In this document: piece after piece, positions 13,832 to 17,227 of the stretch
How positions within the stretch are numbered: position 1 is the stretch's first letter
Layout: every line of letters begins with the position of its first letter
DNA from: Bacillus sp. ISL-55
Lineage (GTDB): Bacteria; Bacillota; Bacilli; Bacillales; Cytobacillaceae
Assembly: GCF_018613155.1 (NCBI RefSeq)
Contig: NZ_JAGGQU010000017.1
Coordinates: 1 to 35,529 of the forward strand
Length of the DNA stretch: 35,529 bases
Reading direction: 5' to 3'
Translations under genes and position numbers: made by a program
The notes under the pieces: model-generated
Told to the model about the DNA's origin: nothing
What the model saw: only the letters and a program-made list of their open reading frames with translations
Database searches by the model: none

Positions 13832-15106
13832 ATGATAGAGATGGTCGCAGTAGAAGAAATTACAAATTATATCGAAAATGGACAGCTTGAAAAAGCAATG
13901 GCTGCTTATCAAAGAATTCTCGAAAATGGCAGCGACGAAGAAAAATTCCTGCTCTCTGAGGAGTTTTTCCGCTTTGGTTTCATGGAAGAAACGGAGGCAT
14001 TAATCGAGAGTTTATTGAAGAATTATCCGAATGAAGGCGAACTCCATGTTTTGCTCGCTGAAACCCGGATCGAGATGGGCAAAGAGGAAGAGGCAATGCT
14101 TTCGCTTGAAAAAGTTGACGAAGAAGACCCTTCTTTTCCTCAGGCACTGCTTCTATTGGCTGACTTGTATCAGATGGAAGGTCTGTTTGAAGTGAGTGAA
14201 AAAAAGCTGCTTCAAGCTAAAAAGCTTTTACCGGATGAGCCTGTCATCGATTTTGCTCTTGGTGAGCTGTACGCTTCCCAGGGAAAACTTGTTGAAGCAA
14301 TCCAGTATTACGAAACGGTTCTTAAGTCACATGAAGAGATTGGCGGAGTGAACATTAACCAGCGAATGGCCGAAGCGTTAAGTGCAGGCGGATCGTTTGA
14401 GGAAGCACTCCGATTTTACGAAGTAGCACTTGAGCAAAAACTGGAAATTAATACATTGTTCGGCTTTGCTTTTACAGCCTTGCAGGCAGGCTATAATAAA
14501 ACAGCAATCGATAAGTTTGAGGAACTAAAAGCTCTTGACCCTGAATACCACTCCCTTTACCTCTATCTTGCCAAAGCTTATGAGCGGGAAGAACTAGTCG
14601 AAGAGGCATTCGATGCAGTGAAGCAGGGAATCGAGCAGGATGAGTTCAATAAGGATTTATACTTTTATGGCGGGAAAATAGCACTCAAAATTCCCGATGA
14701 AGAAGCTGCCGAAAAATTGCTTCGTGAAGCAATCGCTCTTGATCCAGGATTCATGGAAGGAGTCCTTGTCCTGAACAAACTTCTGCTCAAGCAGGAACGC
14801 TATGAAGATGTACTTGAGCTAGTGCGGGCAGCTGACATCCACGAAGAAGAAGAAGAACCACAAATTCTTTGGGACGAGGCAGTTGCTTACCAGCAAATTG
14901 AAGATTTTTCACAGTCATTAAACAAATACCAACTCGCATATACTTTCTTTAAAGACAACAAAGAATTTTTGACAGACTATGGTTATTTTTTAATTGAAGA
15001 AGGAAAAATGGCCGACGCCGCCGAAATTTTTAGTAAGCTAGTTGAAAAAGAACCTGGCAATGAAGAATACCGTGAATTGTTAGAACGCATGACGGAGAAT
15101 CAGTAA
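13832..15106 (+). CDS. ypiA: Tetratricopeptide repeat protein YpiA
   Basis: This 424-aa acidic, soluble protein is built of helical tetratricopeptide repeats along most of its length. Examples are QLEKAMAAYQRILENG near the N-terminus, KLVEAIQYYETVLKSHEEI, FEEALRFYEVALEQ, LVEEAFDAVKQGIEQ and AAEKLLREAIALDPGF. No signal peptide or membrane segment is seen. Such repeats usually mediate protein-protein contacts; the specific partner is unknown. Position between aroA and ypiB matches B. subtilis ypiA. ATG 13832 is used; ATG 13841, three codons later, is also plausible because both have only weak ribosome sites. Confidence 0.9.
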   Translation: MIEMVAVEEITNYIENGQLEKAMAAYQRILENGSDEEKFLLSEEFFRFGFMEETEALIESLLKNYPNEGELHVLLAETRIEMGKEEEAMLSLEKVDEEDPSFPQALLLLADLYQMEGLFEVSEKKLLQAKKLLPDEPVIDFALGELYASQGKLVEAIQYYETVLKSHEEIGGVNINQRMAEALSAGGSFEEALRFYEVALEQKLEINTLFGFAFTALQAGYNKTAIDKFEELKALDPEYHSLYLYLAKAYEREELVEEAFDAVKQGIEQDEFNKDLYFYGGKIALKIPDEEAAEKLLREAIALDPGFMEGVLVLNKLLLKQERYEDVLELVRAADIHEEEEEPQILWDEAVAYQQIEDFSQSLNKYQLAYTFFKDNKEFLTDYGYFLIEEGKMADAAEIFSKLVEKEPGNEEYRELLERMTENQ

Positions 15107-15147
15107 CCTAACAAAAAATTTGAGTTATGCAGAGGAGGGATTCAAAA

Positions 15148-15702
15148 ATGACAACCCCTGTATCTGTCAACGAGAAAAAGGATTTTATCCGCTGGTTTTT
15201 AAACCATTACCAGCTTAAAAGGCGGGAATGCGTTTGGATCCTTAACTACTTGATGAGCCATGACCAGCTGATGGAAAAAGTGCACTTTGTGGAAAATGCA
15301 CAATATTGTCCAAGGGGATTAGTGATGTCGACCCATTGCGTGGATGAAGTACCTTTCCGGTTCTTCAAAGAAAACGTGATGACGACAGATGCTGAAAAGT
15401 CTTTCCACGACATTCGCTTGAACAGGGAAGAAGAAATTTACATCCAATTGAATTTCCACGCTTCAAACAAAGCCCACCAGTTTGCGGCCGTCCTGGAAGA
15501 AAACCCTTATGTTCCAGGCCAGCTCCAAATCAGTGAAAGTGACAAGATGGTAGCAGAGAGATTCCTTGAAGAGAGCATTCAAAAATTCCAAAAAGACAAA
15601 CTGCTTACCATGATTGATGAAGCACTGGACAGCCAGGACCAGGAAGCCTTCGAACATCTCACAGAACAATTAAAAAGATTGGGCGCAGTCAATTCGTTAT
15701 AG
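15148..15702 (+). CDS. ypiB: YpiB family protein (UPF0302)
   Basis: This 184-aa cytoplasmic protein of unknown biochemical function matches the YpiB/UPF0302 family in length and sequence pattern. Recognisable segments are [26 protein letters not shown], the central [13 protein letters not shown] and the C-terminal helical region [27 protein letters not shown] (15133-15139), eight bases before ATG 15148, is a near-perfect ribosome site, so the in-frame ATG at 15127 is rejected. It follows ypiA by 41 bp, presumably co-transcribed, and its stop codon lies inside the stem of a terminator. Confidence 0.92.
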
Positions 15703-15730
15703 CTTGCTTTTGATAGCAGGCTTTTTATTT
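15701..15730 (+). terminator. Intrinsic terminator overlapping the ypiB stop
   Basis: AGCTTGCT (15701-15708) pairs with AGCAGGCT (15715-15722), including one G-T pair, with a 6-base loop. It is followed by TTTTTATTTT. The first two stem bases are the last two of the TAG stop codon. Confidence 0.88.
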
Positions 15731-15823
15731 TGCCTGTTATTAGCACTTGTGTCGCTGATTTGAGCAAAATTATGCTCTTTTGGACAAGGACAGTACGGGC
15801 TGGCGAAAAGGATTGAAACCATG

Positions 15824-16500
15824 CTTCGGACAAAGCAAGAGTGAAGATCCGTCGAAATGTCCGAACTTGATCCTACTTCAGACAAAACTCAAGGGAAGGT
15901 CCGTTGAAATGGTCGAACCTTATGCAACTTCGGACAAAACTCAAGCGAAGGTCTATTGAAATGGTCGAACTTGATCCTACTTCGAACAAAACTGAAGGGA
16001 AAGTTCGTTGAAATGGTCGAACCTTATGCAACTTCAGACAAAACTCAAAGGAAGGTCCATTGAAATGTCCGAACCAGGTCCTACTTCAGACAAAACTGAA
16101 GGGAAGGTCCATTGAAATGGTTGAACCTGAACCTACTTCGGACAAAACTCAAAGGAAGGTCTGTTGAAATGGTCGAACCTGAACCTACTTCGGACAAAAC
16201 TCAAGGGAAGGTCTGTTGAAATGGTCAAACTTGATTCTACTTCGGACAAAACTCAAGAGAAGGTCCGTTGAAATGGTCGAACCTGAACCTACTTCGGACA
16301 AAACTCAAAGGAAGATCCGTTGAAATGTTCGAACCCGGTCCTGCTTCGGACAAAGTTACAAGGAAGAATCGCAGAAGTGTCTGAACTTGCCCTCACTTCG
16401 GCCAAAACCACCAGGGAGTGACCATTGAAATGTCCGAACCAACCCTTACTCAGGATAAAACGCAATGGAGCGGCCCGGAAAAGTCCAAACCTGACAAACC
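15824..16500. repeat. Noncoding tandem array of thirteen 52-bp units
   Basis: Units begin with CTTCGGACAAAAC at 15824, 15876, 15928, 15980, 16032, 16084, 16136, 16188, 16240, 16292, 16344 and 16396, exactly 52 bp apart, with a decayed thirteenth at 16449 (53-bp step). Each unit contains TTCGGACAAAACTC, then GGAAGGTCCGTTGAAATG, then GTCGAACC and a variable 10-bp tail. Middle units (16136-16291) are nearly identical and edge units diverge. Because 52 is not a multiple of three, the array cannot encode a repeated peptide, and no long frame crosses it. The motifs GGAC and GTCC allow hairpins in each unit. It fills most of the 914-bp gap between ypiB and ypiF. Units are contiguous without spacers, so it is not a CRISPR. 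Confidence 0.95.
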
Positions 16501-16502
16501 AT

Positions 16503-16531
16503 TCGAAAACGCTTATTAATCGTGATATTAT
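16503..16531 (+). promoter_or_regulatory. Putative promoter of ypiF
   Basis: TCGAAA (16503-16508, four of six) and TATTAT (16526-16531, five of six) are 17 bp apart, and TGA precedes the -10 (extended -10). It starts just at the end of the tandem array and is the first plausible promoter after the ypiB terminator. Confidence 0.5.
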
Positions 16532-16616
16532 AGGTAAGGATTGAATGGCGGGCTTTCAGTCGTAGAGTATCCTATGTTAAATGACCGGGGCCTAATAGAA
16601 TGATGGAGTTGGTTTT

Positions 16617-17072
16617 ATGAGATGGGTATCAGCAGATGTAGAGATGTACCAGAATGCAGCAGAATATGTAGACACGGCCATCGTGTCGCTATTGCCAGTT
16701 TCTTTTGGTGAAAATATGAAACAAAATGCTTCGATGGCGGAATTTATTTCAATACTTACATCGCAACTGGAGAAGCAGTTTCGGGGCCGAATCTTCCTTT
16801 TGCCCGATTTTGTATACATAAAGGAAAATGAGGGAAGCTTGAATGCATTAAAGGATTGGGAGAACACTCTTTTGGACAAGCAATTCAAACATATTTTTTA
16901 TGTGACTTCCGACAGCCGCTGGAGGCAGCAGGAAAAAGAATTGAGTGGAAACGTTCTGTGGCTGCCGTCCTTGTCTCTGGAGCATATGCAGGAGCAGCAA
17001 AAAGTTGCCATAGTGGGTGATCAGGTAAAGCAATTATTATCTTTGTTTACAGAGAAATGGGAAGAAGAATAA
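16617..17072 (+). CDS. ypiF: YpiF family protein (DUF2487)
   Basis: This 151-aa protein of unknown function matches the YpiF/DUF2487 family, which sits next to the qcr operon in Bacillus. The N-terminal MRWVSADVEMYQNAAEYVDT and the following IVSLLPVSF are characteristic. No signal peptide, membrane span or catalytic motif is evident. GGAGTT (16604-16609) gives a reasonable ribosome site. The neighbourhood suggests a link to the cytochrome bc complex, but nothing in the sequence shows what it does. Confidence 0.88.
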   Translation: MRWVSADVEMYQNAAEYVDTAIVSLLPVSFGENMKQNASMAEFISILTSQLEKQFRGRIFLLPDFVYIKENEGSLNALKDWENTLLDKQFKHIFYVTSDSRWRQQEKELSGNVLWLPSLSLEHMQEQQKVAIVGDQVKQLLSLFTEKWEEE

Positions 17073-17122
17073 TTCAGTGTTATTTTTATCACTGAGAAAA
17101 ATGTTTTCAACATAGTATTATA

Positions 17123-17151
17123 TTGATTTTGTAATCAGATTGATATATCAT
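17123..17151 (+). promoter_or_regulatory. Putative promoter of qcrABC
   Basis: TTGATT (17123-17128, four of six) and TATCAT (17146-17151, five of six) are spaced by 17 bp. The leader to the qcrA GTG is about 70 nt. The AT-rich flanks would suit regulators such as ResD, but no defined operator was recognised. Confidence 0.5.
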
Positions 17152-17227
17152 GGTTATGTCCTAGTTTTAAAATGTGTTTAAATTATGTCCGTTGGGGACT
17201 TAACTTGGGAATAGAGGGGGGAATAGC

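Follow-up and report, generated by a model that had tools for sequence, protein, structure and literature searches.

Repeats of 51–53 nt have been described in Bacillus by Subirana and Messeguer (2021; PMC8161180), who counted 1,886 of them in 176 genomes and termed them enigmatic; an earlier paper on bacterial tandem repeats by the same authors is cited there (PMC6749651). The accessible part of the 2021 article proposes a polymerizing protein, a role in the nucleoid, or an RNA as explanations of the 52-nt repeats, and it notes that nothing points to a Cas-like partner. According to the same text, the repeats have a period of 51–53 nt and a variable sequence, are non-coding, occur as several families per genome, and contain conserved short words together with their reverse within one unit. 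All of these properties are also found in the array that is analyzed here. Among the parts of PMC8161180 that were available, the tables include the half-site pair TTCGGACA/TGTCCGAA and list B. selenatarsenatis, B. subtilis 168 is given without any 51–53-nt repeat, and the consensus of B. oceanisediminis and B. alkalitelluris in Table 1 of that article contains TTCGGAC and TGTCYGAA. The array class is already published, and what we regard as new is the gene–array system. As far as the accessible text of PMC8161180 goes, no protein partner of the 52-nt repeats is reported, and the words "NERD" and "nuclease" have no occurrence in its main text; the NERD gene 5' of the array, the half-sites particular to each paralog, the dyad common to them, and the periods of 41, 52, and 62 bp in different clades come from the present analysis and not from that part of the article. 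A published report of a NERD gene–array system was not found in the literature searched, which lay mostly outside subscription journals. Now that a protein family has been linked to the arrays and half-sites have been assigned to it, the function of the satellites has become testable.

In the REP/BIME elements with RAYT (REPtrons), a chromosomal gene for a nucleic-acid enzyme lies beside its own palindromic repeats, further copies of which are dispersed, and RAYT/REP pairs are thought to be self-maintaining. Dispersed palindromic repeats and a linked chromosomal enzyme gene are present here as well, but RAYT is a Y1 HUH transposase, whereas the protein described below combines NERD/PD-(D/E)XK with a zinc-ribbon-like pattern, and regular tandem arrays as well as several paralogs per genome set the present system apart from REP/RAYT. 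CRISPR loci are similar in that a regular array is formed in which a partly palindromic conserved part alternates with a variable part. However, CRISPR spacers are unique, whereas the interiors are near-copies within an array in our case. Among the gene clusters neighboring 93 arrays, viewed without annotation, none was recognized as cas. For the STAR elements of staphylococci, we know of no linked gene, and their motif and spacing differ from those of the 52-bp arrays. The likeness lies in their being interspersed intergenic direct repeats (cf. PMC3532100).

The window, i.e., the whole stretch of DNA that was analyzed, comprises 35,529 nucleotides (contig NZ_JAGGQU010000017.1 of Bacillus sp. 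ISL-55), and the features around the array are given in Table 1. The host appears to be a Mesobacillus-type bacterium. ReoY, after which the family of the upstream gene is named, is presumably identical to YpiB, and the name ypiF has been taken over from an earlier note on this DNA. The next three genes downstream of ypiF are of the Rieske, cytochrome b6, and cytochrome c types, as identified by NCBIfam matches.

Table 1. Features at the array and its two flanking genes (positions in the window)
Feature	Position	Strand	Evidence
ReoY-family gene (ypiB/reoY), upstream of the array	15127..15702	+	NCBIfam NF002965 "ReoY family proteolytic degradation factor", E 7e-93
Hairpin followed by a T tail (terminator-like), 3' of ypiB	15701..15722	+	Consensus scan, 1 match vs. 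mean 1.1 in shuffles
Tandem array, 13 units x 52 bp, pattern TTCGGACA-N25-TGTCCGAA-N11	15824..16500	.	TRF, unit list, half-site counts
Promoter-like site ahead of ypiF	16503..16531	+	Consensus scan, 1 match vs. mean 1.3 in shuffles
ypiF, first gene past the array	16617..17072	+	ORF; matched in 21/21 genus genomes; no NCBIfam match

The earlier note had described thirteen 52-bp units of constant length, and this description holds. TRF found a single array in the whole window (15824–16354, period 52, 10.2 copies, 83% matches, 0% indels), and thirteen units result when the stretch listed in Table 1 is cut every 52 bases. The first ten units agree with the consensus of the window array at 42–50 of 52 positions and the last three at 33, 29, and 24, and it is in these last three that a one-base shift enters. 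The self-match at lag 52 amounts to 0.749, which is far above the mean of 0.26 (maximum 0.302) in 500 shuffles. Unit types alternate in several arrays (e.g., L006 and L009), suggesting a 104-bp superperiod, and in the window array the self-match at lag 104 is slightly higher (0.764). As there are 7–9 stops in each of the six frames, the array is not coding, as had been noted earlier. The left half-site TTCRGACA is present in 10 of the 13 units. The right half-site has mostly drifted (TGGTCGAA in 5 of 13 units, TGTCYGAA in frame in 3 of 13) and is intact in only 3–4 of the 13, and the window array may therefore be partly decayed.

Such regularity had been considered uncommon in bacterial intergenic DNA, but 25 matches to the array DNA were found in the genome of the host, the one in the window included. 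Related genomes also contain the unit: 17 of the 21 genus genomes gave matches, compared to none of 20 genomes from outside the genus, and the copy number varies at the slot between ypiB and ypiF. In arrays placed side by side, the period is 52 almost throughout, with few steps of 51 or 53. Two inverted words are constant, forming the pattern given in Table 1, and the interiors differ between many arrays and are near-identical within one array. Sites of the TTCGGACA, CATAAGGG, and TATCGGACA types are all present in the host genome, with 93 and 95 exact TTCGGACA-pattern matches on its two strands. The third of these families, TATCGGACA-N25-TGTCCGATA, has sites in 17 of the 21 genus genomes, at several places each among the matches listed.

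Genome contigs were scanned with both gaps left free, i.e., with 441 combinations, which yielded at least 108 stretches; N25/N11 was the commonest spacing in 81 of the 108 stretches listed. Among the matches listed, at least 620 triplets had this spacing, compared to 18 for the next one, and it was seen in 60 of the 80 titled stretches. These 60 belong to Bacillales genera, including Mesobacillus, Neobacillus, Cytobacillus, Evansella, and Texcoconibacillus, with the exception of five rows labeled "Chryseobacterium sp. ISL-80". This label is probably wrong, as the genome agrees in the length of a contig with G013, a Bacillus-type member of the genus. A Macrococcus locus has N35/N12 and a period of 63. 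The exact three-word TTCGGACA pattern is distributed patchily in the order (23 of 397 genomes and 11 of 135 genera), and a reversed-pattern control gave 0 matches throughout the 397 genomes.

Clustering of the genes around 93 arrays revealed one small cluster that directly adjoins the arrays, at distances of 19, 52, and 63 bp, in three genera including Macrococcus. The linked protein has about 302 residues and contains a NERD domain (PF08378, E 7e-13 to 2e-14), with scores of 49.6, 54.7, and 50.4 bits for the three linked proteins against a curated cut-off of 22.1. All 59 proteins of at least 280 residues have E42, D74, D/E87, and K89 of the PD-(D/E)XK motif as well as four invariant cysteines. 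Judged from sequence, the four cysteines have a zinc-ribbon-like pattern, with weak Pfam zinc-ribbon matches. The AlphaFold model of the protein is poor overall (pLDDT 56), and residues 211–290 are helical in it (pLDDT 67–85). In our reading of the model, this C-terminal part would be a helix-turn-helix; none of the Pfam helix-turn-helix families matched the linked proteins. A Y1 (HUH) transposase was also searched for in the three linked proteins and gave no match up to E 0.1.

The six single-contig genomes of the genus have 5–7 full copies of the family each, and 20 of the 21 genus genomes have 5–13 matches each when distant NERD genes are counted in. We sampled 60 loci by hand, mostly from complete chromosomes with uncut flanks, 40 of them from the genus (from a listing of about 100 matches with at least 39% identity) and 20 from other genera. 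At 57 of these 60 family genes, a 51–53-bp array or its double follows 3', 9–210 bp past the protein match; only periods of 50–54 and 102–106 bp were taken into this count, whereas all periods were shown in the class-wide set below. An array within 300 bp 5' of the gene was found at none of the 60 loci. Of the three array-less cases, two are pieces of genes, and the third is a gene with an interruption, the second piece of which is followed by an array. The NERD domain is what these proteins have in common with other NERD proteins, and the array-linked branch adds the four-cysteine pattern, the C-terminal helical part, and the arrays; no arrays were found at 20 hand-picked loci with distant NERD genes of the genus.

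When the whole class was searched with the Macrococcus protein, 30 loci were obtained (L357–L359 belong to the same genus, with L359 and L299 being one gene), 26 of which have a 3' array. The four loci without an array all belong to the Macrococcus family, one of them at a contig edge, and show one or two palindromes by eye. One contig of this set (L366, genome G634) carries a pair of family genes at a distance of about 3 kb, the first of which is flanked on either side by arrays of a single type. In the genome of the window, the likely cognate gene is G000:C63:13755-14660, which is followed 3' by an array of the TTCGGACA type. This adjoining array is absent from the 25 places matched by the window array, whereas another array of the same genome is 73% identical to the window array over 563 bp, which is a hint of copying between sites.

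The arrays 3' of the family genes have different words, namely TTCGGACA, TGACAG, TATCGGACA, CATAAGGG, ATTGGTGACC, GATCGTGCCC, and others, and these half-sites differ between the paralog branches. When one unit is taken per protein cluster, a shared dyad core, G-M-C-M, is found 10–13 bp from the axis, and the varying stretch lies inside this core. With 23 protein clusters, the core reaches 6.52 bits, compared to 2.53 ± 0.25 in shuffles (maximum 3.28 of 60), and with 16 clusters it reaches 6.30 bits, compared to 3.50 ± 0.30. Unit similarity climbs with protein identity only above about 50–60%, a trend that is expected from shared descent alone because gene and array are linked. The period is 51–53 bp at loci from Bacillales and in another two families of the class, 61–63 bp at 6 of the 10 Macrococcus-family loci (the other four being those without a TRF array), and 41 bp in both genomes of another family of the class. 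These values are near four, five, and six helical turns, in three clades only. Phased binding of a protein had been suggested in the earlier note on the grounds that 52 bp are close to five helical turns, and the fixed-spacing inverted half-sites, the linked NERD family, and the periods of the clades now support this suggestion well at the sequence level.

The number of CATAAGGG sites tracks the cognate gene. All 14 genus genomes with a match to this gene (E <= 1e-100) have 19–146 sites, the gene-linked array included, and two of the 14 genes contain an internal stop. The seven genus genomes without a gene match have 0, 0, 0, 1, 1, 4, and 54 sites; one of the zeros comes from a genome that is 66% complete (G010), and the 54 sites are those of G012, which holds a broken gene copy. 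For the TTCGGACA family, exceptions exist. A family match with E <= 1e-20 is present in 23 of 23 genomes with exact TTCGGACA arrays and in 124 of 374 others, which does not translate into a probability because the genomes are related. With a hand count of close relatives (E <= 1e-97), exact TTCGGACA arrays were found in 20 of the 34 genomes having such a relative, compared to 3 of 363 others, and the remaining 14 of the 34 have none. G016 and G018 have many TTCGGACA sites, and their best relatives of P0001 are 69 and 68% identical and carry a TGACAG-type array, indicating that an array may be present where no cognate gene is evident. In G002, where 132 sites remain on each strand, the gene copy next to a TTCGGACA array is broken, and the identity of the best relative is 64%. 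A gene with 75% identity is present in G012, which has no match to the window array.

The slot between ypiB and ypiF was compared at 21 loci, 19 of which are from genus members with both genes and two of which have one gene only. Some species of the genus have TTCGGACA arrays or their remnants at this position, and G009, G017, and G019 have a CATAAGGG array with a period of 53, so that one intergenic slot is able to host different satellite families. No array is present in 7 of the 19 genus members, such as G011 and G020. As the promoter-like sequence before ypiF is kept in some of these relatives, including the two named, the array seems to be dispensable for ypiF, as far as sequences can tell. 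The earlier note had placed the array between a terminator of ypiB and a promoter of ypiF; both sites are single consensus matches, as many as are obtained in shuffles, and the promoter-like sequence recurs in relatives.

Linkage, paralog-specific words, the shared dyad, and the period, taken together, make it very likely that the arrays serve as a binding platform of the cognate NERD-family protein. We consider it probable that the window array represents a dispersed satellite of a two-part element that consists of a NERD-family gene and a 3' palindromic array. The first part would be the gene for a NERD protein with the four-cysteine zinc-ribbon-like pattern and the C-terminal helical part, and the second part would be the tandem palindromic units just 3' of this gene, with arrays of the same family, the window array among them, residing elsewhere. 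Each unit would bind a protein dimer via its two inverted half-sites, and, with a period of five turns, consecutive dimers would lie on the same face of the DNA, which would permit cooperative assembly. More speculatively, the NERD domain could nick or cut the DNA within bound units or next to them and thereby drive unequal exchange and gene conversion, processes that would keep the arrays long and homogeneous and would occasionally seed new ones. In this way, the gene–array pair would maintain itself like the RAYT/REP pairs. Whether nuclease-driven upkeep is the main role appears doubtful, although it is a serious candidate. In a more general and tentative form, Bacilli may carry an unnamed class of two-part elements, each made of a zinc-ribbon NERD nuclease and a private satellite. 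The paralogs would differ in half-site but retain the dyad geometry and the whole-turn period, and every paralog would maintain its own arrays and spread them through the chromosome. If true, such elements would be the bacterial equivalent of satellites that promote themselves by means of a nuclease of their own. Maintenance of the arrays by the nuclease would mean that bacterial chromosomes can carry self-maintaining satellite DNA in a novel manner, and if there is no such upkeep, the proteins would be a new family of array-binding chromosome proteins.

Alternatively, the NERD-family proteins could be structural components of the nucleoid that use the nuclease fold for DNA binding, with the arrays as anchors at which the chromosome is folded or stiffened. 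The regular helical period would fit such a role, as would the occurrence of arrays at many places along complete chromosomes, among the matches listed, and a polymerizing protein and a nucleoid role have been suggested in general terms in the accessible text of PMC8161180. However, catalytic residues that are invariant in 59 of 59 proteins would be odd for a purely structural job, and an essential role is difficult to reconcile with the patchy presence (11 of 135 genera), the broken genes, the several unrelated families per genome, and the exchange of families within one slot. We therefore regard a nucleoid architecture function as unlikely. The invariant catalytic residues, the patchiness, the broken genes, and the changing families, read from the sequences, lead us to favor a self-maintaining element over an essential structure.

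A defense system, in which foreign DNA is the target of the nuclease and the arrays serve to store this enzyme or to mark self, would be compatible with the nuclease-like domain and the diversification of paralogs. It is nevertheless improbable, because the sites sit in the host's own chromosome and no confident match to a defense model was obtained (best PADLOC E 0.004; NCBIfam MADS6 with E 7e-6 and 24.8 bits against a cut-off of 460). In addition, searches with P0001 among 72,556 plasmid records (E <= 1e-10) and 50,697 phage records (E <= 1e-5) gave no match.

The arrays could also be neutral relics that expanded by slippage and are passively kept, and the drifted right half-sites of the window array and the persistence of arrays beside broken genes are what one would expect in this case. 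The earlier note had named an accidental expansion of variable period as the finding that would speak against a function; copy number and even family indeed vary at the ypiB–ypiF slot, whereas the period hardly does. As half-sites and spacing are conserved across genera despite differing interiors, and as the arrays are linked to the gene and site counts track it, a purely neutral origin is quite improbable.

That the arrays act as transcribed small RNAs or sponges has very little probability. Inverted half-sites can form hairpins, and 52-nt arrays of B. coagulans are transcribed according to the accessible part of Subirana and Messeguer (2021; PMC8161180). Folding of the window array, however, was little better than that of 20 shuffles (z -1.2 for the plus strand and -2.1 for the minus strand), Rfam covariance models gave 0 matches up to E 1 in positions 15000–17200 of the window, and RNA loops need neither the fixed N25/N11 spacing nor whole-turn periods. 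Insulation or regulation of the respiratory ypiF–qcr operon, an idea of the earlier note that the position between the terminator-like and promoter-like sites might suggest, can practically be dismissed, as seven relatives have no array at the slot, some of them keeping the promoter-like sequence, and three have another family there.

Several arrays and family genes are located at contig ends (e.g., L003, L004, and L005). Assemblies are probably interrupted by such repeats, so that the real number of copies may be higher; the arrays may explain contig breaks in the genomes that bear them. As a further side aspect, 34 viral contigs (L156–L189), nearly all of high G+C content, contain clusters of the 8-base words TTCGGACA/TGTCCGAA with spacings of mostly 9 and 17–18, and these clusters resemble a conserved phage operator that has no relation to the arrays.
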